64,000 nt of DNA. It comes from Dechloromonas sp. HYN0024. GTDB lineage: Bacteria; Pseudomonadota; Gammaproteobacteria; Burkholderiales; Rhodocyclaceae. The notes below the pieces were generated by a model. The model was not told the origin of the DNA and did not search any database. It was given only the letters and a program-made list of their open reading frames with translations. The stretch covers positions 3,108,001 through 3,172,000 of the forward strand of contig NZ_CP031842.1 in assembly GCF_003441615.1 (NCBI RefSeq), in the 5' to 3' direction. Both the position numbers and the translations under genes were made by a program. Positions 3,489 to 46,432 of this stretch are shown here, one piece after another. Numbering within the stretch: the stretch's first letter is position 1; every line of letters starts with the position of its first letter.

Positions 3489-3556
3489 TCGCGCGTCAGG
3501 GCGGCCCTGTGTTGCGTGGTCGCTACCCATTATTTGAAAATCTCTTGAAAACAAAC

Positions 3557-4147
3557 ATGACCATCACCCACGAAGAACGCATGCAGAAGAAAAAGGCCGT
3601 CATTGACAGCAAGATTGACGCCGCCCAGGAAGAACGTGGCGTACTGGTGGTCAATACCGGCAATGGCAAGGGCAAGTCGAGCGCCGCTTTCGGCGTGGTC
3701 GCCCGCGCCCTTGGTCACGGGCAAAAAGTTGGTGTTGTTCAGTTCGTCAAAGGCCGCTCGGATACCGGCGAGGAAGCTTTCTTCCGCCAGCAGCCGAATG
3801 TCGCCTGGCATGTCGGTGGCGAAGGCTTCACCTGGGAAACCCAGGACAAGGACCGCGACGCCAGGGCCGCCCAGGCCGCCTGGGAAATCGCCTGTCAACA
3901 TTTGAACGATCCGGCCATCGGTCTCGTCGTTCTCGACGAAATGACCTATGCCTTCAAGTACGGCTGGCTCGACCTCGCTACCGTGATCGGTCAACTGCTC
4001 ACCCGCCCAGCCATGCAGCACGTCATCATCACCGGCCGCGGGGCGCCGCAAGCCCTGCGCGACGCAGCCGACACGGTCAGCGAAATCGGCATGGAGAAAC
4101 ATGCATTCCAAAGCGGCATCAAGGCCATGCCCGGCCTCGAATTCTGA
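3557..4147 (+). CDS. cobO: Cob(I)yrinic acid a,c-diamide adenosyltransferase
   Basis: CobA/CobO/BtuR-family enzyme (196 residues) that transfers the 5'-deoxyadenosyl group of ATP to reduced corrinoids in the cytoplasm. The nucleotide-binding loop GNGKGKSS lies at residues about 34-41, followed by GVVQFVKG and the family pattern LVVLDEMTYAF. The frame is open from 3509, but the ATG at 3557 gives the standard N-terminus with the short charged helix before the P-loop. It lies 68 bases after btuD and its stop overlaps the cobB start by one base (TGATG). Placement after btuBCD suggests adenosylation of imported as well as newly made corrinoid. Confidence 0.92.
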   Translation: MTITHEERMQKKKAVIDSKIDAAQEERGVLVVNTGNGKGKSSAAFGVVARALGHGQKVGVVQFVKGRSDTGEEAFFRQQPNVAWHVGGEGFTWETQDKDRDARAAQAAWEIACQHLNDPAIGLVVLDEMTYAFKYGWLDLATVIGQLLTRPAMQHVIITGRGAPQALRDAADTVSEIGMEKHAFQSGIKAMPGLEF

Positions 4148-5430
4148 TGCCAGCCTGCCCCGCATTGCTCATCGCCGCGCCAGCCTCCGGCCAGGGCAAG
4201 ACCACTGTCACGGCTGCACTGGCCCGACTGCATACACGTAAGGGGCGGCGGGTCACTGTTTTCAAATGCGGTCCGGATTTTCTCGATCCGCAAATTCACG
4301 CTGCGGCCAGCGGTCATCCCTGCTACAACCTTGATCTCGGCATGTGCGGGGACGACGATGCCCGCTGGCGACTGGCCCGGGCGGCAGAGGATTCCGACCT
4401 GATCCTCATCGAAGGCGTCATGGGTCTGTTCGACGGCGAGCCTTCCGCGGCCGACATCGCCATCCGTTTCGGCATCCCGGTTATGGCCCTGATCGACGCC
4501 GGGGCGATGGCCCAGACCTTTGGGGCCATCGCTCATGGCCTGGCCAGCTATCGGCCCGGCCTGCCCTTTGCCGGCGTACTGGCTAACCGTGTCGGCAGCG
4601 CCGGCCATGCCCGGATGCTGCGCGACAGCCTGCCACCCGGTACCGGCTGGTTTGGTGCCCTGCCCAAATGCGATGACAGCCTACCCGAACGCCACCTCGG
4701 TTTGCTCCAGGCGAGCGAGATTACTGACCTCGAAGCCCGCCTCGACCATTTGGCTGATGCCCTGGCCGCCAGTGCCAGCGTCGACCTGCCGCCACCGATC
4801 GATTTCGCCGTGGCTCGACCGCCCACCAGCACCCCACTGCTCGCCGGCCAGCGCATTGCCATCGCCCGCGACGCCGCCTACGGTTTTATTTATCCAGCCA
4901 ATCTGGATACGCTTGAGGCGCAGGGGGCCGAACTTTGCTTCTTCTCGCCCGTCGCCGGCGATCCGCTTCCGGCCTGCGATGCCGTCTGGCTTCCCGGTGG
5001 TTACCCGGAACTCCATACCGAGACGCTCGCCCGTCAGTCCTCGCTCTGGAATGCCCTGCACGACCATGTTGCCTCCGGCAAGCCACTGCTGGCGGAATGC
5101 GGCGGCATGATGAGCCTGTTCTCTGAAGTCGTAGACAAGGCCGGCATCAGTCATCGCTTTGGCGATTTGCTGCCCGGCCGTTCGATCATGCAAAAACAGC
5201 TCGCTGCCCTCGGTACCCAATTTGTCGATCTGCCGGAAGGCCATATCTCAGGCCACACGTTTCATTTTTCCCGGAGCGAGACACCGCTTGCCCCACTGAC
5301 CGTGGCTAAAACGGCGGATGGTCGGAGTGGTGAAGCGGTTTACCGGAAAAATCGCCTGACCGCCTCCTATCTGCATTTTTACTTCCCATCGAATCCCGCT
5401 GTCGCAGCCCGCCTGTTCATGAACGCGTGA
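4147..5430 (+). CDS. cobB: Cobyrinic acid a,c-diamide synthase (CbiA/CobB)
   Basis: ATP- and glutamine-dependent amidation of the a and c side chains of cobyrinic acid, early in B12 synthesis. The N-terminal dethiobiotin-synthetase-like domain has the P-loop PASGQGKTT (residues 12-20) and the GPDFLDP motif. The C-terminal half is a class I glutaminase-like domain with nucleophile Cys318 in AECGGMMSLF and the late motif ASYLHFYF. Length (427 residues) is normal for the family. It is the last gene of the btu-cob cluster; the stop codon lies inside a perfect inverted repeat. Confidence 0.92.
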   Translation: MPACPALLIAAPASGQGKTTVTAALARLHTRKGRRVTVFKCGPDFLDPQIHAAASGHPCYNLDLGMCGDDDARWRLARAAEDSDLILIEGVMGLFDGEPSAADIAIRFGIPVMALIDAGAMAQTFGAIAHGLASYRPGLPFAGVLANRVGSAGHARMLRDSLPPGTGWFGALPKCDDSLPERHLGLLQASEITDLEARLDHLADALAASASVDLPPPIDFAVARPPTSTPLLAGQRIAIARDAAYGFIYPANLDTLEAQGAELCFFSPVAGDPLPACDAVWLPGGYPELHTETLARQSSLWNALHDHVASGKPLLAECGGMMSLFSEVVDKAGISHRFGDLLPGRSIMQKQLAALGTQFVDLPEGHISGHTFHFSRSETPLAPLTVAKTADGRSGEAVYRKNRLTASYLHFYFPSNPAVAARLFMNA

Positions 5431-5457
5431 CTGTTCGTTTTTTACGAACAGTCACGC
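5425..5457. repeat. 14-bp perfect inverted repeat spanning the cobB stop codon
   Basis: Arms 5425-5438 (gcgtgactgttcgt) and 5444-5457 are exact reverse complements around a five-T loop. The cobB stop (5428-5430) is inside the left arm. There is no immediate T-run after either arm, so it is either a weak terminator or an mRNA 3'-end stabilising hairpin at the end of the btu-cob operon. Confidence 0.8.
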
Positions 5458-5530
5458 AGGCCTGGATTAATTTTTCGGCAACGAGAAGCAGATACACTAC
5501 GGCTTGTAACTTTTCCACACGGAGACAACG

Positions 5531-6412
5531 ATGAAGAATTTCGTACTGATGGCTGCAGCAGTCGTGCTCGGCCTCACCCTGCAAATTGGCGACGCCGAAG
5601 CCAAGCGCCTGGGCGGCGGCAGTTCCTCTGGCATGCAACGCCAGTCAGTCGCCCCGAGCGCCCCCCCGTCGGCCGCCAGACAAGCCCCCGCGCCGGCACC
5701 GTCAGCCCCAGCCGCGGCACCGGCTGCCCAGCCCAAGCGTTCGTGGATGGGCCCGTTGGCCGGCCTGGCTGCCGGTATCGGTCTGGCCGCACTGGCTTCG
5801 CACTTCGGCTTTGGTGAAGGTCTGGCCAATTTCATGATGATCGGTCTGCTGATCATGGCGGTCGTCATGGTGATTGGCTTCTTCATGCGCAAGAAAGCAG
5901 GTGCTACCCAGCAAGGTGGCCTGCAATACGCCGGCGCCAATCCGAACTACGGCAGCAATACGCCGCACGAACCTGACTTCATTCCAGCCGGCGGTTCTGC
6001 CGCAGCACCTATTGCTGCTGCAACCGGTGCGGGCAATATTCCGGCCGACTTTGATGTCGAGGCTTTTGTCCGGAACGCCAAGGTTAACTTCATCCGTCTG
6101 CAGGCTGCCAATGATGCCGGCAACCTCGACGACATCCGCGAATTTACCTCGCCGGAAATGTTCGCCGAGATCAAGCTGGGCATGGGCGAACGTGGTGCGG
6201 CACAACAGGAAACCGACGTTGCCCAGCTCAACGGCGAAGTTCTTGATGTCGCTGAAGAAGCCAGTCGCTACATTGTCAGCATCCGCTTCACTGGCCTGAT
6301 CAGCGAGGAAAAGGGCGCCGCTCCTGCTCCTTTCGACGAAATCTGGCATATGACCAAACCGACCGACAACAGCCGCGGCTGGGTGCTCGCCGGTATTCAA
6401 CAAGTCCAGTAA
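5531..6412 (+). CDS. Tim44-like domain membrane protein
   Basis: A 293-residue protein with an N-terminal signal or anchor segment (residues 1-24, AEAKRLGGGSS following), a Pro/Ala-rich linker (about 40-70), two closely spaced hydrophobic segments (about 74-118) and a C-terminal Tim44-like domain (about 170-292, starting FDVEAFVRNAKVNFIRLQAA and ending GWVLAGIQQV). Bacterial Tim44-like proteins of this shape are common in betaproteobacteria and their function is not settled. A clear GGAG ribosome site precedes the ATG. It is a single gene between the cobB hairpin and a strong terminator. Confidence 0.85.
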   Translation: MKNFVLMAAAVVLGLTLQIGDAEAKRLGGGSSSGMQRQSVAPSAPPSAARQAPAPAPSAPAAAPAAQPKRSWMGPLAGLAAGIGLAALASHFGFGEGLANFMMIGLLIMAVVMVIGFFMRKKAGATQQGGLQYAGANPNYGSNTPHEPDFIPAGGSAAAPIAAATGAGNIPADFDVEAFVRNAKVNFIRLQAANDAGNLDDIREFTSPEMFAEIKLGMGERGAAQQETDVAQLNGEVLDVAEEASRYIVSIRFTGLISEEKGAAPAPFDEIWHMTKPTDNSRGWVLAGIQQVQ

Positions 6413-6430
6413 GCCTGGACAGGCCTGACC

Positions 6431-6465
6431 AAGGCTGGCCGGAGAAATCCGGCCAGCCTTTTTTA
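6431..6465 (+). terminator. Intrinsic terminator after the Tim44-like gene
   Basis: Perfect 12-bp stem (6431-6442 with 6449-6460, aaggctggccgg) with a six-base loop, running into TTTTTT. The remaining sequence up to 6618 holds nothing I recognise. Confidence 0.92.
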
Positions 6466-6618
6466 TTGGCTGCCGTCGAGAAAAGCGGGGCGATCCCAGA
6501 TCACTCGGAAATAGCACGCTGCATTGATCCCGGATGGACGACTTCATCGCCAAGCCCGGTCGAACCGGACTATCTTTTCATCATTCTTCTGAAATGGCTC
6601 AGGGCAGGACGACAAACA

Positions 6619-8118
6619 TCAACTTGAGCAACTGACCTCCAGCCCGCTTGCCCAGTCCGGCGGCAAGGCTGCCAAGTCATCGAATTCCGGCTCCTCGTCA
6701 AAGGGCCGGCGCAGACAGGTCAGCAAACGTTGCACACCCGAGAAGTCCTTCGCCTTGGCCTGACGAATAGCCGCCTCGGCCAGCCAGTTGCGCAGAATGT
6801 ACTTGGGGTTGCTAGCGAGCATCGCTGCCTGCCGTTCTTCATCTGCCCACGGCGTTTGCGCCAGACGGGTCCGCCAGCCATCCAGCCAGGCATCGCAAGC
6901 GGCACGGTCGATGAACAGATCGCGCAACGGCGCATCTGCCGCGGCCCGGTTATCCCGCCCGGCTTCGCCCGGCAGCCGCGACAGGAGGCGAAAGAATGTC
7001 GTGAAATCGGGCCGATGCTGCTGCAGGAAACCAAAGGTCTCGCCGATAAAGGTTTCGTCGTCCGGCATGGCCTCCCGCAAACCGAGCTTGGCGCGCATCA
7101 ACCGGGCAAAAGTCTGTTCGAAGGCATCGCCATACGTTTCATCAATCGCGGCGCGGGCAATTTCAGGACGGTTGAGCAAGGGCAGGAAGGCATCGGCCAG
7201 GCAATAGAGGTTCCACTGCCCGACATGTGGCTGGTTACGGTAGGTATAACGACCATAGGTGTCGGAGTGGTTACAGATGTGGCCCGAATCAAAGGCCTCC
7301 ATGAAACCAAAAGGCCCGTAATCAAGGGTCAGGCCGAGGATCGACATGTTGTCGGTATTCATCACGCCGTGCATGAAGCCGACCGCCATCCAGTGCGCCA
7401 TCAGTTCGCCGGTACGAACCGACACATCGCGCAGCAGCGCATCGTAGGGATTGGCGGCAATACGACACCCAGGGCGAAAGGTATCAATGACGTAGTCAGC
7501 CAGTTGCTGCACTTCCAGCTTCCTGTCACGCGAGGCCCAATGCTCGAAAGAGCCAAAACGGACAAAACCGGGTGCCACCCGCGCCACGACGGCAGCCGTC
7601 TCGATTTCCTCGCGGCGCACCGGTTGCTCGGCGCCGATCACGCACAGCGCCCGGGTAGTCGGCACGCCAAGGCCGGCCATTGCTTCCGAGCAAAGAAATT
7701 CACGTATCGATGAACGGAGCACTGCCCGTCCGTCGGCACCGCGCGAATAGGGTGTCTTTCCCGCCCCCTTGAGCTGGATTTCCCAGTGCCCGCTTTCGTT
7801 GTGCAGGCCACCCAGCAAATGGGCCCGACCATCGCCCAACTGGCCCGCCCAAACGCCGAACTGATGACCGGAGTAGACAGCAGCGAGCGGCTCGCTGCCA
7901 GGTAGCAGGCGATTGCCGGCGAAGATTTCAGCGAATTGGGGACTATTCAGCAGCCCATCGGGCAGACCCAGCAGATCAGCGACGTCATGGCTGATACCGA
8001 CAACGTAAGGATCGGGCAGGGGATGTGGCGGAAGACGGGTGTAGAAAGCCGCGGGCAGGCTGGCAAAACTGTTGGCAAAGACGGGCAGTTCGCCCAGAAA
8101 AGGTTCAGCGGCATTCAT
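6619..8118 (-). CDS. selO: Protein adenylyltransferase SelO (YdiU/UPF0061 family)
   Basis: Pseudokinase-fold enzyme (499 residues) that transfers AMP to protein Ser/Thr/Tyr residues; family members act in redox stress. Family signatures are all present: [39 protein letters not shown], the catalytic-loop region HGVMNTDN and [13 protein letters not shown]. The C-terminus is Cys-Ser-Ser, the position where animal homologues carry selenocysteine. It starts at an ATG at 8118 and is a single gene with no obvious operon partner. Confidence 0.95.
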
Positions 8119-8221
8119 GATGTCGGATTTCTGTCAAAAAGTCGGGAGAGTCCGGCACACAGCAAAGGGCATGCCGGTCCGGATCTCCTTCAGAACACGA
8201 AAGCCGAGGATGGTTCGCGCG

Positions 8222-9235
8222 TCAGAAGCCGGCCGCTTCAGCTTCAAGATAGGCGATGCTCACGTACTTGCCGATATTGGCCTCGAAACCCTTGGTGTTT
8301 TTAGCCTGACTGGCGACACGCTTGTCCTTGAGAACCAGCGTCTTGGCCTCTTCAAGCGGCAGTCCATCCTTGATGGCCTGTTCGCAGGGATAGTAGATTC
8401 CCTCGAACAACGCGCGGTTCCACGCCAGTACATTAGCGGCCGGCACACCGTGAGCCGGTAGCCAGATCTTGGTCCGGGTCGACTTCTCCAGTGCGTCGTA
8501 CGCCTTGAAAGTCCCCAGATAGGAGCCATCATCCATATTGGCGATGCGCTGGTTCATGGCAATATCGCCCACCAGGGTGACGCCGTCTTCAACCACCTCG
8601 ACACACAGGTCGGACGGCGTATGAACCTTACCGTAATGGTGAATGCGCAAGGTGACATCGCCAAACCTGAGTTCAGCCCCATGCTCCAGCGGCATGTTGG
8701 GCGGCACGATGCGGGTGCCAAGGGAAGCCTCGTTGGTGGCCTTCTCGATCAGCGACAGCCACAGGCTACCCTGAATCCCCTTAACGGCCTGGATGGTGCC
8801 GGCATGCGCATACATCGGCAGACTATTACCGTAACGCTCGACATAGGCATGATTCCCGAGCCAGTGGTCACCGTGGTAATGGGTGTTGATGATGGCGACC
8901 ACCGGCTTCCGGAAATTCTTTTCCAGTTGCCGTATGGCCATTTCACCAATCTGCACCGACGCCCCGGTATCGATGACAACGACCCCTTTGCTGGTATTGA
9001 CGAAGGTGATGTTGCTCATCATTCCCTGGTTGTCGGGGGTCGGAAAACCGTGCGGGGTAAAGATGATTGATACGTGCTTCGAAACCTGACGCAGTGGATA
9101 GTCCTTGATGGCCGGGCCACGGACAAAATCATCCATCTCGCTGGCGAATGCGCTCATCGACTGCCATGGGGCAAACTCAACCGCCCAGAGCGCCGAAATG
9201 GCCGCCACGGAGCGGAGAAAATCGCGACGGTCCAT
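8222..9235 (-). CDS. Tat-exported metallo-beta-lactamase-fold hydrolase
   Basis: 337-residue periplasmic protein. The N-terminus MDRRDFLRSVAA is a twin-arginine signal, followed by a hydrophobic stretch and a mature protein with the zinc motif HxHxDH (His119, His121, Asp123, His124 in THYHGDHW) and later metal ligands in LVGDI and PAHG. It resembles the metallohydrolases found with quinoprotein systems, but no such genes are nearby, so the substrate is unknown. An ATG at 9241 is in frame, but the AGGAGA ribosome site (9241-9246) only has proper spacing to the ATG at 9235. Confidence 0.85.
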   Translation of the reverse strand: MDRRDFLRSVAAISALWAVEFAPWQSMSAFASEMDDFVRGPAIKDYPLRQVSKHVSIIFTPHGFPTPDNQGMMSNITFVNTSKGVVVIDTGASVQIGEMAIRQLEKNFRKPVVAIINTHYHGDHWLGNHAYVERYGNSLPMYAHAGTIQAVKGIQGSLWLSLIEKATNEASLGTRIVPPNMPLEHGAELRFGDVTLRIHHYGKVHTPSDLCVEVVEDGVTLVGDIAMNQRIANMDDGSYLGTFKAYDALEKSTRTKIWLPAHGVPAANVLAWNRALFEGIYYPCEQAIKDGLPLEEAKTLVLKDKRVASQAKNTKGFEANIGKYVSIAYLEAEAAGF

Positions 9236-9306
9236 GAGCATCTCCTGAAATGTTAAAATAGAACGCTATCATCGCGCCGAATGCGGCGCTCGTCTACACT
9301 GACACC

Positions 9307-9525
9307 ATGCGCCACTACCCGTTCTCTTTTGTCGCCCTGACCAGCCTCGGCATCCTTTGCGCCATTCCTGGTGCCATCAGCCTGGCAGGCTTCGGTGCCG
9401 CGTTGCACCCGGTTCTCGATGACCCGATGGCCGGCCTGGCATTCATCGTGTCGGCCATTGCCCTGATCGGCTCCGGCGCCTTCCCGCTGGTCATCGAAAA
9501 ACTGAAGGAAGGCGAAGAAGCCTAG
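9307..9525 (+). CDS. Small two-helix membrane protein, unknown function
   Basis: 72 residues: a first hydrophobic helix at about 7-30, a second at about 42-63, and a charged tail EKLKEGEEA. I do not recognise the family. It is divergent from the metallohydrolase gene. There is no Shine-Dalgarno sequence; a TACACT hexamer ends exactly six bases before the ATG, which would fit a leaderless transcript. Its TAG stop shares the sequence CTAG with the stop of the convergent YeeE/YedE gene. Codon use matches its neighbours, so I believe it is real. Confidence 0.65.
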   Translation: MRHYPFSFVALTSLGILCAIPGAISLAGFGAALHPVLDDPMAGLAFIVSAIALIGSGAFPLVIEKLKEGEEA

Positions 9526-10625
9526 TCTTCGCGCATCAGCCGCCAGTACTGAACCTTGACCGTTACCGCTGCGCCGCCAACGATGGCCAGAAAGGTGACG
9601 ATTGAACCAAGCGCCAGGGTCGAAAAACCGCTAATTCCCTGACCGACCGTACAACCCAGACCGACGACGCCACCAAAACCCATCAGCGCCGCACCGAGCA
9701 GGTGACTGGCCGTATCCTCGACGCTGGCAAACCCTTCCCAGCGGAATTTCCCGGTGGCTAGGGCCCACACCCCCGAACCGGCAATGACGCCGAGCACCGT
9801 GGCGATGGCAAAGCTCAGGGTGCGACTGGTATCGGACCACAGCATGAGCAACTCCAGCGTATAGGCCTGCGCAGCGACGAATGTCAGCGACTCCATGCGC
9901 CCACTGTTGGTCGTCAGAAAGGCCTCTTCAAGCGTCTCCGGATGCTCGACCAGATAACCGACATGACCGCTGACATACCAGGCCGCGACGACGGTCAGGC
10001 CAATACCGATACCGCCCAGCAGATTATCGAAACTCCAGAAATCCCGCTTGAGCAGACAGAAGGCGGTCAGCCCACCGCCGATAGCAAGCACGGCGAGCAG
10101 AAAGGCCGTCTTCGGCTCCATGCCAACGGCCCTGAGCAGGGCCGGAATATCCTGCCCCCCCGGCATGACGATGACCGCCTTTTCCAGCACATTGACGCGA
10201 AAAACACCGAAAACGCCACGCATCGTCATGTAAGCGACAAGGCCAAGGACGAGAAAGACCACCACTGACTTGAGATTGCCGCCACCGATACGGATCAGCG
10301 TCTTCGAGCCACAGCCGGAAGCGAGCACCATGCCGATGCCGAAAGTCGCCCCGCCGACAAGGTAGGACAGCCAGGTGAAATTGGGCGTCCGGTAGATCGA
10401 TTTACCGAGGTCGATCAGCCCGGCGCCATGCAGCGCACCCGCCCCCAGAATGGCCACACCAATGGCCAGCAGCCACATGCGCATGCGACTCCAGTCACCC
10501 ATATTGACGATGTCGGAAACGGCACCCATGGTACAAAAATGGGTTTTCTGGCCGATGGCCCCAAAGACAAACGCGACGACAAAAGCCAGCCATTGAACGG
10601 TCGAAGAAAGGGCGGCAATTTCCAT
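9522..10625 (-). CDS. YeeE/YedE-family (sulphur transport) permease
   Basis: About 367 residues with nine or more hydrophobic helices and the internal duplication of this family. Conserved cysteine motifs: HFCTMGAVSD near residue 30, ASGCGSKTL near 100, and GLGCTVGQG near 330. Family members import thiosulfate or related sulphur species through Cys relays. The frame is open upstream, but the ATG at 10625, two bases after the queC stop, gives the correct N-terminus (MEIAALSSTVQWL) and implies co-transcription with queC. The link to queuosine synthesis is not obvious. Confidence 0.85.
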   Translation of the reverse strand: MEIAALSSTVQWLAFVVAFVFGAIGQKTHFCTMGAVSDIVNMGDWSRMRMWLLAIGVAILGAGALHGAGLIDLGKSIYRTPNFTWLSYLVGGATFGIGMVLASGCGSKTLIRIGGGNLKSVVVFLVLGLVAYMTMRGVFGVFRVNVLEKAVIVMPGGQDIPALLRAVGMEPKTAFLLAVLAIGGGLTAFCLLKRDFWSFDNLLGGIGIGLTVVAAWYVSGHVGYLVEHPETLEEAFLTTNSGRMESLTFVAAQAYTLELLMLWSDTSRTLSFAIATVLGVIAGSGVWALATGKFRWEGFASVEDTASHLLGAALMGFGGVVGLGCTVGQGISGFSTLALGSIVTFLAIVGGAAVTVKVQYWRLMRED

Positions 10626-10627
10626 GA

Positions 10628-11305
10628 TCAGGCCTGGTAAATGGTTGGATCGGTCAGGCCGGCGGCGGCAAAGCCTTCGGCGCGCAGGCGGCATGAATCG
10701 CAGACCCCGCAGGCACGACCGAGTTGATCGGCCTGGTAGCAGGAGACGGTCAGGCCGTAATCAACACCGAGAGCAGCGCCAGTACGAATGATGTCGGCCT
10801 TTGAAAGGTCGATCAGCGGCGCATGAATACTCAGTTTTACCCCCTCGACCCCGGCTCTGGTCGCCAGATTGGCCATCTTTTCGAAGGCCGCGAGGTATTC
10901 CGGGCGGCAGTCCGGGTAACCCGAATAATCGACCGCGTTGATGCCGACGAAAATGTCGCGGCTGCCCAGCACCTCAGCCCAAGCCAGGGCCAGCGAGAGC
11001 ATGATGGTGTTGCGGGCCGGCACGTAGGTCACGGGGATGCCAGGCTGGACGCCGTCGACCGGGACGTTGATGGCGCTATCGGTCAAGGCCGAGCCGCCGA
11101 ACTGGGCCAGTCCCAGATTGAGTACGCGATGCTCGACCGCGCCCAGCGCCTTGACGACACGATCGGCTGCCTGCAACTCGGCACAGTGACGCTGGCCGTA
11201 GTTGAACGACAGACAATAACAGTCAAAACCCTGGCTACGGGCTATGGCGAGACAAGTGGCGGAATCGAGTCCACCGGAAAGGAGAACGACAGCTGGCTTC
11301 ATCAT
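10628..11305 (-). CDS. queC: 7-cyano-7-deazaguanine synthase QueC
   Basis: ATP-dependent enzyme (225 residues) converting 7-carboxy-7-deazaguanine to preQ0 for queuosine in tRNA. The PP-loop motif SGGLDSAT is at residues 10-17, and the zinc-binding cysteines are near the C-terminus (CYQ, then CGVCDSC). Two consecutive ATGs start the frame; either is possible. It is followed within two bases by the YeeE/YedE permease. Its pathway partner queE lies 5 kb away on the same strand, separated by the ABC-transporter operon and a PilZ gene. Confidence 0.93.
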
Positions 11306-11404
11306 GGGGCGCGAATATACCTGAAAATCGGCTTCCTTTGATCCGGTATCTGCTTGTTCCTGCGCTACAATTTGCCGTTATCGACCTTTTTGCCGGAGAT
11401 TCGC

Positions 11405-12571
11405 ATGTCGCTTCGCCTGACCGTCCTTGCCACCGCGCTGATGCTGGCTGGTTCTGCTCACGCCGCCGACCAGATCAAGGTCGGTCTGGTGTCCACCCTG
11501 TCCGGCCCCGGGGCCGGCCTCGGCGTCGATATCCGCGACGGTTTCAATCTGGCGATGAAGCATCTGAATGGCAAACTGGGCGGACTGCCGGCCGACGTGC
11601 TGATCGCCGACGACCAGCAAAGCCCCGATATCGCCAAGCAGGCGGCTGACAAGTTCCTCAAGAAGGACAAGGTCGATTTCATGACCGGCATCGTTTTCTC
11701 CAACATCATGCTCGCCGTCGGCCCGAGCGTTTTCGACAACAAGACCTTCTACATTTCGGCCAACGCCGGCCCCTCGCAATATGCTGGCGAGCAGTGCAAC
11801 CCCTACTTCTTCAACGTCGCCTGGCAAAACGACAACCTCCATGAGGCCGTCGGCAAGGTTGTCCAGGACAAGGGCTTCAAGAACGTCGTGATCGTCACGC
11901 CCAACTACCCCGGCGGCAAGGATGCCGTTTCCGGCTTCAAGCGTTATTACAAGGGCAAGGTCGCCGAAGAGGTCTACACCAAGCTCGGCCAGCTCGATTA
12001 CGCCGCCGAACTGGCGCAAATCCGCAATCTGAAACCCGACGCACTGTTCTTCTTCCTGCCCGGCGGCATGGGCATCAACTTCGTGAAACAGTTCGTCTCG
12101 GCCGGCCTGTCACGCGACACCCAGTTGTTCGCGCCCGGCTTCTCGGCTGACGAGGATGTCATCAAGGCCGTCGGCAGTTCGATGATGGGCATGTTCAACT
12201 CGTCGCATTGGGCGCACGACATGGACAACGCCGAGAACAAGCGCTTCGTGGCTGATTTCCAGAAGGAATACGGCCGCCTGCCCTCGCTCTACGCCTCGCA
12301 GGGTTACGATGCCGCGTTGATGATGGACGGCGCCGTGCGTGATGTAAAAGGCAAGGTCGACGACAAGACGGCCCTGCAAAAAGCCCTTGAAGCCAAGCGC
12401 TTCAAATCGGTACGCGGCGACTTCAAGTTCAACACCAATCACTACCCGGTACAGAACTACTACCTGCGCGCCATCGGCAAGGATGCCAGCGGCCGGGTCA
12501 CCAACAAAACGATGGGCACCATCTTCACCAACCATGCGGACGCCTATGTAGCCGCCTGCAAGATGAAGTGA
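11405..12571 (+). CDS. Branched-chain amino-acid-type ABC transporter substrate-binding protein
   Basis: 388-residue periplasmic type I binding protein (LivJ/Peripla_BP_6 family). A cleavable signal peptide (MSLRLTVLATALMLAGSAHA) is followed by IKVGLVSTLSGPGAGLG and later PNYPGGKDAVSGFKRYY, typical of the family. Substrate cannot be read from sequence; Leu/Ile/Val, aromatic compounds, amides or urea are all possible. The frame is open from 11354, but the ATG at 11405 has a GGAG site eight bases upstream and starts the signal peptide. First gene of a five-gene transporter operon. Confidence 0.88.
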   Translation: MSLRLTVLATALMLAGSAHAADQIKVGLVSTLSGPGAGLGVDIRDGFNLAMKHLNGKLGGLPADVLIADDQQSPDIAKQAADKFLKKDKVDFMTGIVFSNIMLAVGPSVFDNKTFYISANAGPSQYAGEQCNPYFFNVAWQNDNLHEAVGKVVQDKGFKNVVIVTPNYPGGKDAVSGFKRYYKGKVAEEVYTKLGQLDYAAELAQIRNLKPDALFFFLPGGMGINFVKQFVSAGLSRDTQLFAPGFSADEDVIKAVGSSMMGMFNSSHWAHDMDNAENKRFVADFQKEYGRLPSLYASQGYDAALMMDGAVRDVKGKVDDKTALQKALEAKRFKSVRGDFKFNTNHYPVQNYYLRAIGKDASGRVTNKTMGTIFTNHADAYVAACKMK

Positions 12572-44872: not shown

Positions 44873-45538
44873 ATGTCTGCCGGTGCCCGTCTTCCCCAGC
44901 TGAAAACGTCCGAATGGCGGCACAGCGCTCGCTACTTCCTGATCGCGCTGGTGCTGCACGGGCTGATCTTGTTCTACCCGCTTACACCGAGCATCGACCT
45001 GCTCGAAACGACGCCTCCCGCTTCAGTGCAGGTGAAGCTAACCGAGCACATTTCGGCAACCAGGACAGCGCCCCCGGCGATTGCCCCGAAGCCATCGCCG
45101 ACACCCACTCCGCAACGAGAAAAACCCTCCCCGAGCCCACAACCGGTACTCGCTCTAGCCGTCGAACCGACCAGCCCCCCTGTCACCTTCACAGTCCCAG
45201 CCGTACCCACGGTTCCGGCCGCATCAACCCCCCTCACTGCCGGCCCTGCACCCACTTCAGCACCCCGTTTCGATGCCGCCTACCTGCACAACCCGCTCCC
45301 CGAATATCCGTTGCTATCTCGCCGCATGGGAGAGGAAGGCAGAGTACTGCTCAGGGTAAGGGTCATGCCGGACGGTTTGCCAGCCAGTATCGAGATCGAA
45401 AAAACCAGCACGTTTGAGCGCCTAGACAACGCCGCCCGCCGTGTCGTCAGCCGCTGGCACTTCGTCCCGGCCAAGCGCGGCGACGAAACCATCGAAGCGT
45501 CGGTCATCGTACCGATTGTCTTCAAACTGGACAATTAA
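44873..45538 (+). CDS. TonB protein, divergent second copy
   Basis: 221 residues with an N-terminal membrane helix (about 17-36), a Pro/Thr-rich spacer and a C-terminal TonB domain (NPLPEYPLLSRRMGEEGRVLL, RWHFVPAKRGDETIEASVIVP) closely resembling the operon TonB. An in-frame ATG at 44801 would add a non-typical extension running through the operator and the -10 box, so I choose 44873. No ribosome site: probably leaderless. It may serve the copper receptor while the operon copy serves its own receptor; that division is inference. Confidence 0.85.
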   Translation: MSAGARLPQLKTSEWRHSARYFLIALVLHGLILFYPLTPSIDLLETTPPASVQVKLTEHISATRTAPPAIAPKPSPTPTPQREKPSPSPQPVLALAVEPTSPPVTFTVPAVPTVPAASTPLTAGPAPTSAPRFDAAYLHNPLPEYPLLSRRMGEEGRVLLRVRVMPDGLPASIEIEKTSTFERLDNAARRVVSRWHFVPAKRGDETIEASVIVPIVFKLDN

Positions 45539-45568
45539 TCGGGCAATGCCGGGAAACAGACGTGACGA

Positions 45569-45751
45569 CGGGGACCGAAGTCCCCGCCGGCTATCTTTGG
45601 TAACAAGGCTCTAGCAGCCCCGGCTAACCGTTTTTAGGCGGCAATAGCGAAATGCTCATCATTGGCATTTATGGATTTGCTTCATTAACGTCGATCGCCT
45701 GACGAGTTGCCTGCTCACCTTTGCCCGCCCTGTCGAAACCAGTACACCCCC
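45569..45751 (-). ncRNA. tmRNA coding piece
   Basis: Begins with the standard tmRNA 5' sequence (GGGGGTG, then GGTTTCGACAGG) at 45751, contains the tag frame, and near its 3' end has a strong UUCG hairpin (45569-45586, seven pairs) directly after the strand that pairs with the acceptor piece. The 3' end is approximate. Confidence 0.85.
45634..45666 (-). other. tmRNA proteolysis-tag reading frame ANDEHFAIAA
   Basis: Codons GCC AAT GAT GAG CAT TTC GCT ATT GCC GCC then TAA. The resume codon GCC follows CATAAAT. The tag starts ANDE and ends AIAA, matching the betaproteobacterial tag type recognised by ClpXP and ClpAP. Confidence 0.93.
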
Positions 45752-45780
45752 AACCAAAAACACCGATATCGATGTGCTTG

Positions 45781-45862
45781 GGTGGAGGTGAGGGGAATCG
45801 AACCCCTGTCCAGAACGCCTCCAGATTGCCGGAATTACAACCATGCTTTCAATTATGGGGGC
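45781..45862 (-). ncRNA. tmRNA acceptor piece
   Basis: Upstream half of the permuted gene, ending CACCTCCACC at 45781. Discriminator A is at 45783. The next encoded base is C, not A, so the terminal CCA is only partly encoded and must be completed after processing. The 5' boundary is uncertain. Confidence 0.85.
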
Positions 45863-45872
45863 GGGGTGGGGG

Positions 45873-45901
45873 TTTTACAAGCGAGGCCTCGTCGCCGACA
45901 A
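45873..45901 (-). promoter_or_regulatory. Possible ssrA promoter
   Basis: TTGTCG (45901-45896), 17-base spacer, GTAAAA (45878-45873), just downstream of the lipoprotein stop and just before the acceptor piece. The match is moderate. Confidence 0.35.
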
Positions 45902-45904
45902 AAA

Positions 45905-46432
45905 TCAGTGACCGCACCATCCCCGGCGATCGTCACTAATGGACATTGCGCGGGAGCTTTCGGGAGCGGACAGCGTCGACCGTACCTGCCGCGAGCTGCC
46001 ATCAAATAACACATTGAAGCGCGCCGGCTCGTTCCAGTCGTCACAGAAACGCCATTCCCAGACGAGCTCGTCACGTGCCTTGAAATAAGTAGTCCACTCC
46101 GCAACTGACGGCCCCAGGATGCGCAACACCTGATCTTGCGTCATGCCGACCTGAATACGGGAAAAGTGCCCGGTATCGAGAACATTCTCCCTACCCACAA
46201 AATTACCGAGGGCATCACTGCGTACAAAGAAGGTATGAAAACCCATTGGCCCCCGAGGATAGACCAGCGTCTGTCCTCCATCCGCGTCATTCCAGCGCAT
46301 GGCCGGTTGCCCCATGATCCGCTCTAACGCTTCGATCCGCCCCCCACCCGCTTGCAGACTGAACCCGTCATAGGCGGCACAACCAGCCAACAGGCCACCA
46401 ACCAGCGCACCGACAATGCCTCGCCAATGCAT
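45905..46432 (-). CDS. OmlA/SmpA-like outer-membrane lipoprotein
   Basis: 175 residues with lipobox LLAGCA (Cys about residue 18). The middle contains a BamE/SmpA-type pattern (FSRIQVGMTQDQVLRILGPS), and a second shorter copy near the start (ALERIMGQPA) suggests a duplicated fold. A role in outer-membrane maintenance is possible, but this is not the standard BamE. It follows ribE with nine bases between and precedes ssrA. Confidence 0.72.
   Translation of the reverse strand: MHWRGIVGALVGGLLAGCAAYDGFSLQAGGGRIEALERIMGQPAMRWNDADGGQTLVYPRGPMGFHTFFVRSDALGNFVGRENVLDTGHFSRIQVGMTQDQVLRILGPSVAEWTTYFKARDELVWEWRFCDDWNEPARFNVLFDGSSRQVRSTLSAPESSRAMSISDDRRGWCGH

Follow-up and report, generated by a model that had tools for sequence, protein, structure and literature searches.

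A circularly permuted tmRNA gene in Dechloromonas sp. HYN0024 and the turnover of tmRNA gene forms among its relatives

Introduction

The standard one-piece transfer-messenger RNA (tmRNA) and the two-piece tmRNA have the same function. We describe a circularly permuted gene for the latter, an ssrA on the minus strand of a 64,000-nucleotide (nt) stretch of Dechloromonas sp. HYN0024 (NZ_CP031842.1, positions 3,108,001 to 3,172,000; the window, whose numbering is used throughout). Its closest described relative is the betaproteobacterial two-piece tmRNA of Rfam family RF01850, reportedly described by Sharkady and Williams in 2004. The two share the order of the halves, the helices that join them, the position of the tag and a hairpin at the end. 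They differ in the spacer between the halves, which the RF01850 structure shows unpaired and which at the window forms a hairpin prolonging the acceptor stem. The permuted tmRNAs of alphaproteobacteria and cyanobacteria (RF01849 and RF01851, with the merged model RF04321) likewise have a permuted gene and a two-piece product. Standard tmRNA (RF00023) shares the tag, the G-U third acceptor pair and the SmpB partner and differs in the order of its halves.

Two-piece tmRNAs from permuted genes are established in betaproteobacteria (RF01850; PMC11915505), and the window gene adds another. The same paper puts the current database at 11,946 unique permuted tmRNA sequences and states that the CCA position of permuted tmRNAs does not always encode CCA. 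The lasting interest, more than in the window gene alone, is in the turnover of gene form among near relatives and in two classes of spacer. A literature search, whose scope did not reach the 2004 work, returned no title on form switching within genera or on pairing in the betaproteobacterial spacer, which is weak evidence of absence.

We computed the architecture of the locus, its standing as sole copy, the covarying hairpin of its spacer, the distribution of both gene forms and the conflict between trees. On these grounds the gene probably gives rise to a functional two-piece tmRNA, cut from a precursor with a spacer hairpin, and the permuted gene would be a cassette that has moved between species and repeatedly replaced the one-piece gene.

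Results

A complete permuted ssrA without a second tmRNA gene over the cut-offs

The window locus is a circularly permuted ssrA of the betaproteobacterial type. In the direction of the gene it consists of a putative promoter, the 3' acceptor piece, a 29-nt spacer, the 5' coding piece and a GC-rich hairpin. A preliminary description made from the sequence alone had given the order as 3' half, 29-base spacer and 5' half with the tag ANDEHFAIAA. The sequence bears this out, as do ARAGORN, whose independent call of a permuted tmRNA* spans 45543-45872 and gives the same tag, and RF01850, which matches at full length. The covariance search (cmscan) placed this beta_tmRNA model at 45563-45894 (-) with 322.4 bits (E 2.9e-104, model positions 1-331 of 331) against a gathering score of 84 bits, in keeping with the betaproteobacterial type named beforehand. 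The merged model tmRNA_permuted (RF04321) scored 175.8 bits at the gene. Neither RF01849 nor RF01851 was listed over threshold at the window, in a list that omits one lower-scoring match of the same clan. The one-piece model RF00023 does miss the gene, as had been predicted, with 32.5 bits against a cut-off of 47.

Seven acceptor pairs and 20 pairs of a second long helix join the halves, counted from the structure line of the RF01850 alignment. These helices, also foreseen from the sequence, are free of any non-standard-pair mark in that alignment; both such marks (n=2) belong to a hairpin internal to the 5' coding piece.

The acceptor piece, first in the gene, runs from a presumed 5' end over 45781..45845 (-) and, by the RF01850 and RF04321 alignments and the sequence, ends with the T arm, CACCTCC and A-CC (CACCTCC-ACC at 45790-45781). 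Its T arm (45791..45807, -) has a 5-bp stem, AGGGG/CCCCT, and the loop TTCGATT in the sequence and the Rfam alignments. The 3' strand of the acceptor stem (45784..45790, -) pairs with 45745-45751 in the Rfam alignment. The third pair is G-U, as in 78/79 permuted loci from our genome searches, and we take it to be the alanine mark. The spacer follows at 45752..45780 (-) and, with the preceding A-CC, makes up the hairpin that prolongs the acceptor stem, by covariation and folding. The 5' coding piece, second in the gene, starts with GGGGGTG (45751) and covers 45566..45751 (-) in the Rfam alignment, with a presumed 3' end. It holds the tag frame at 45634..45666 (-), read from the sequence and from the ARAGORN coding part, 207-239 of the gene. 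The frame, ANDEHFAIAA* at 45666-45634, has the small hydrophobic end residues of a proteolysis tag and a stop.

The genome is complete (3,258,300 bases, one contig), and RF01850 passes its cut-off in it once, at the window gene; four other matches reach at most 23.4 bits. The preliminary description had left room for a separate, ordinary ssrA. No RF00023 match exceeds 47 bits genome-wide, and the best, at 32.5 bits, overlaps the permuted gene itself. The genome encodes SmpB (PF01668, 197 bits) and two proteins with the PolyA_pol head domain, which is common to CCA-adding enzyme and poly(A) polymerase.

The spacer is a hairpin in one of two classes of junction

We compared the acceptor strands and the sequence between them in 137 permuted loci, which reduce to 86 distinct junctions. 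Among the 137, some named loci probably duplicate genomes that the genome search also sampled. A junction was assigned to class I if 20 nt or more separate its acceptor strands; this class has 76 distinct junctions, the window included, with 27-46 nt in the junction listing. The other 10 (class II) have 7-9 nt, starting with ACCA.

In class I the spacer is a hairpin that prolongs the acceptor stem. Over its first 12 positions 87.8% are paired, against a mean of 74.9% and a maximum of 78.6% in 1000 shuffles of partners, which ignore the relatedness of the loci, and 28-49% in slid registers. The discriminator A pairs with the base preceding the 5' cut in 75/76 junctions. At the place of the A of CCA the base pairs in 62/76, as C-G (31), T-A (23), A-T (5) or G-C (3), and the weak point of the hairpin is the first C, paired in 45/76. 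Control by the tree leaves three independent pairs on supported branches, all in agreement (3/3, p 0.25), and a second coding gives 4/5 alike and 1 without change; both tests are underpowered. Traced over a tree of 89 class I loci, the 5' base changes 17 times, its partner 19 times and the pair 23 times, where fully separate change would give 36. The window hairpin (45745-45790) folds at -25.9 kcal/mol (z -6.5).

The two classes differ in the encoded 3' end. The 58 named loci had been found by a pattern that requires ACC and a set acceptor stem, and end counts are therefore restricted to the 79 loci from genome searches. ACCA is encoded in 22/22 class II genes. The 57 class I genes encode ACCC (23), ACCT (20), ACCA (7), ACAG (3), ACCG (3) and ACAA (1). 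CCA is encoded by 2 of the 52 class I genes in the window's family, and 5 of the 7 that encode it lie outside the family. The standard genes read in the family all encode ACCA (11/11). Thus genes with the hairpin rarely encode CCA, and genes lacking it always do. The preliminary description was right that the window gene encodes ACCC and wrong to single it out. We rejected that end as a peculiarity of the gene since it is the commonest in class I, is encoded by 23/79 permuted loci overall, and has a lower-case c at that place in the Rfam consensus. Three permuted genes of one genus, g230 (L078, L080, L093), end in ACAG, so that even the CC after the discriminator is unencoded. Class II forms a group of 17 rows with support 100 in an RNA tree that was used for this alone and whose very long branches (G025, G304) call for a long-branch warning.

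Permuted and standard forms are mixed within genera

The family sample comprised 199 genomes of the window's family in the Genome Taxonomy Database (GTDB), the Rhodocyclaceae, drawn evenly from a larger group and including many drafts. RF01850 passes in 75, counting partial or doubtful matches in three drafts (G529, G414, G377). RF00023 passes in 111, one of them (G452) by way of a permuted gene that reaches 47.2 bits (cut-off 47); this genome was counted as permuted only. The permuted form alone is thus found in 73 genomes, the standard form alone in 108, both in 2 and neither in 16, all of the latter drafts with at least 110 contigs.

Forty-four genera have two or more typed genomes. Ten are mixed, one of which (g195) depends on the doubtful G529; 12 have only permuted and 22 only standard genes. 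The permuted form is therefore no stable mark of a lineage, a point on which the preliminary reading needs correction, and forms switch within genera. The window's own genus (g1) has four permuted genomes, with G000 and G273 in single contigs, and one standard genome (G493), also in a single contig. Genus g230 likewise has single-contig genomes of both forms (G483 permuted, G395 standard).

Permuted genes also occur outside the family. RF01850 passes in 13 of 300 genomes sampled from the order, 7 from the window's family and 6 from three other families. Two of those six have standard and permuted genes at different places (G209, L159/L199; G304, L161/L162). A sample of 56 genomes from the class yielded one genome outside the order over the RF01850 cut-off (G025, L014/L195). 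It scores 141 bits with RF04321 and 121 bits with RF01850, has a class II-like junction and has no standard gene over the cut-off. Named loci with the same kind of permuted junction are mostly from Rhodocyclaceae (Azonexus, Dechloromonas, Candidatus Accumulibacter, Thauera, Sulfurisoma and others) and include one Hydrogenophaga and two 'Burkholderiaceae' drafts.

RNA and rpoB trees conflict

A tree of the RpoB protein was built for 100 of the 199 genomes: the permuted ones with a listed rpoB match, the standard ones of mixed genera and further standard ones chosen by hand. It is a one-gene tree from a quick IQ-TREE search, supported by the Shimodaira-Hasegawa-like approximate likelihood ratio test (SH-aLRT) only. 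Leaving out G529 and the two genomes with both forms, gene form changes at least 20 times on it. When each form was set against all other rows there were 21 changes, 17 of them forced by well supported branches. The closest pair of those compared was G333 (permuted) with G428 (standard), whose RpoB sequences share 1389/1416 residues (98.1%).

In the regions common to both forms, one branch with support 100 parts the 79 permuted sequences from the 11 standard ones, and we therefore rejected the idea that the permutation arose repeatedly.

The permuted RNAs and rpoB disagree on relationships in approximately unbiased (AU) tests, whose p values are optimistic as the groups were picked after the trees had been viewed. 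Placing the 13 class II genomes in one group conflicts with rpoB (rejected, p 1.3e-64). The RNA alignment in turn rejects two rpoB groups, each with 19 permuted genomes (p 2.6e-5 and 2.5e-10), and also genus g60 as one group (p 4e-4). Permuted RNAs from the window's genus do come together, with support 100. At the level of single pairs, G408 and G416 have RNAs 93% identical and RpoB 82% identical. Transfer and replacement would be the best account of this conflict.

The choice of groups weighs against taking that account as proved, and so does the correlation of identities. RNA and rpoB identity correlate at 0.20 over 57 genomes (class I 0.43, class II 0.17) and at 0.37 in a control of 11 standard genes; as proof of transfer the correlation is equivocal, for the standard gene as well, and the claim of transfer therefore depends on the AU tests.

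Genomic sites and possible carriers

In the family the standard gene usually follows ubiG and a phosphoglycolate-phosphatase-like gene, and ompA and serC are close by (families F0, F6, F1, F5). The phosphatase-like gene scores under the cut-offs of its model, and gyrA and pheA were identified by eye only. Several permuted genes occupy this neighbourhood. The 9.4 kb leading up to the gene in G333 can be aligned with G428 at 84.7%, and the match ends just ahead of their differing tmRNA genes, which amounts to a replacement in place in the same direction. In G306 the permuted gene occupies the site that the standard gene has in G336 but points the other way; G426 relates to G470 in the same manner, except that the phosphatase-like gene is gone. 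The same reversed arrangement is seen in the window's genus when the window and G523 (both permuted) are compared with G493 (standard); for G523 and G493, homology sets in some 25 bases past the permuted gene in the former and 87 bases ahead of the standard gene in the latter. No remnant of a standard gene was seen in G333 or G523 within the 19.5 kb compared. Many other permuted genes lie at places without shared neighbours.

The window gene itself is flanked by riboflavin synthase and by a TonB/ExbB group with a TonB-dependent receptor. A neighbouring lipoprotein has a BamE-like match slightly below the Pfam cut-off. These flanks are about 73-83% identical to those of loci from Azonexus, Dechloromonas and Azonexaceae. 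Ahead of the acceptor piece is a sigma-70-like candidate promoter (TTGTAA, 17 nt, CATAAT; 45852..45880, -), recognised by its consensus match; it is the one promoter-like site in 45400-46100, where shuffles lead one to expect 0.2. The GC-rich hairpin at the other end (45567..45588, -), the last stem of RF01850, is terminator-like without a T run, and terminator predictions for 45400-46100 do not include it.

Permuted genes also occur on a plasmid and on virus-classed contigs. The 278-kb plasmid NZ_CP017753.1 of Cupriavidus sp. USMAHM13 has a complete beta-type permuted gene (L347, 7979-8296; 231.7 bits) without a listed annotation. We scored 24 virus-classed contigs carrying a permuted junction with RF01850; 7 exceed its cut-off, one with 298 bits and the other six with 94-98 bits. 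The 298-bit beta_tmRNA contig (L370, IMGVR_UViG_3300045950_000336) may be a prophage inserted at a host gene. The plasmid and the virus-classed contigs are possible carriers of the permuted gene.

In a congener of the window organism (G273; L158, about 3500-12300) the permuted tmRNA gene is itself interrupted by an insertion of about 8.7 kb. The insertion encodes a protein of 602 aa that matches tyrosine recombinases weakly, and its far end carries a 74-bp copy (70/74 identical) of the promoter-proximal part of the gene up to the T arm. Apparently this is a genomic island that takes the permuted gene as its site and restores the first half of the gene, including the promoter. An integrase next to the permuted genes was also considered as their vehicle and set aside; the G273 island is the one case read.

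Proposed maturation of the two-piece RNA

A single transcript would begin just ahead of the acceptor piece, fold and be cut in the spacer. The two RNAs left after cutting would stay base-paired as a two-piece tmRNA which, with SmpB, would rescue stalled ribosomes and add ANDEHFAIAA. In the precursor the spacer and the acceptor stem would make one long hairpin tying up the CC end. After trimming of the 3' piece, its end would be supplied by CCA-adding enzyme; as the A of CCA is not encoded in the window gene, that enzyme must finish the piece if the gene is to work in this way. The difference between the classes in encoded CCA suggests two routes of maturation, with class I ends finished by CCA-adding enzyme and class II ends needing trimming only.

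A review supposes that RNase P and tRNase Z process two-piece precursors in general (PMC3985003). None of 25 family genomes, standard forms included, has a protein over the RNase Z cut-off of TIGR02651; 17 of the 25 have weak matches, the best at 59.9 of 293 bits, and 9/14 control genomes pass. The RNase BN model TIGR02649 gave nothing over its cut-off in the window genome (20.8 bits), but it is narrow and is passed by 1/14 controls. As modelled, RNase Z was therefore set aside as the obvious 3' cutter, for it neither explains nor separates the classes, and a divergent enzyme is possible. The pair of the discriminator A with the base before the 5' cut could, going by general knowledge, hinder RNase P.

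Discussion

Transcription, cutting, CCA addition and function are inferences, and so is the view that transfer produced the distribution. In Rhodocyclaceae the permuted gene would be a self-contained cassette, moved between species, that replaced the one-piece gene many times. We favour, with some reserve, a fuller reading: an exchangeable cassette for a two-piece form of single origin, with at least 20 displacements in either direction, down to 98% RpoB identity, in some cases at the former ssrA site and often reversed. The class I hairpin would hide the CCA end, encoded CCA having been mostly lost there, and class II would manage without the hairpin, hence two maturation routes.

Mixture of forms within genera would also arise if an ancestor of the family had both genes and lineages then lost one or the other without transfer. 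In its favour, both forms are present in two drafts of the family (G366, G471) and, in other families, in G209 and G304, and the permuted RNAs of the window's genus make up one well supported group. However, of the 183 genomes that have a tmRNA gene only two carry both forms, with the standard gene on contigs of 6,670 and 3,474 bases. The RNA and rpoB also reject each other's groups, and G408 and G416 are much closer in RNA than in RpoB, so that we consider such an ancestor unlikely. Another possibility is that misbinned or chimeric drafts created most of the within-genus mixture as an artefact. Drafts are numerous among the 199 genomes, and the doubtful permuted fragments of G529 (contamination 5%) and the two genomes with both forms fit such an origin. 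Yet each form is represented by complete single-contig genomes in g1 (G000 and G273 against G493) and in g230 (G483 against G395), and G333 and G428 share their 9.4-kb flank; this explanation, already weakened, now seems very improbable. That the window locus is a dead or partial tmRNA copy is scarcely credible. Nothing at the window speaks for it, while a real fragment of that kind lies beside the island in the related G273. The complete model match, the intact joining helices and tag frame, the promoter-like site and the lack of another tmRNA over the cut-offs in a closed genome all speak against it.

The role given to the hairpin is the part of our reading with the most serious competitor. 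The hairpin may have nothing to do with hiding or finishing CCA and be kept for another reason, for example as a single endonuclease site, or be a relic of the permutation. Seven of the 57 class I genes, five of them outside the window's family, keep the hairpin and still encode CCA, as this alternative would allow. Set against it are the covarying pair at the A of CCA and the CCA encoded in every hairpin-less gene (22/22), which are an association and not a mechanism. We regard the alternative as somewhat doubtful.

Under the reading of an exchangeable cassette, the distribution bears on how a near-universal RNA gene gets replaced by a rearranged version of itself. The covarying spacer hairpin leads to a concrete prediction on the cutting of the precursor and the formation of the CCA end. 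Close relatives that differ in the form of the gene amount to a natural experiment on the reasons for a split tmRNA.
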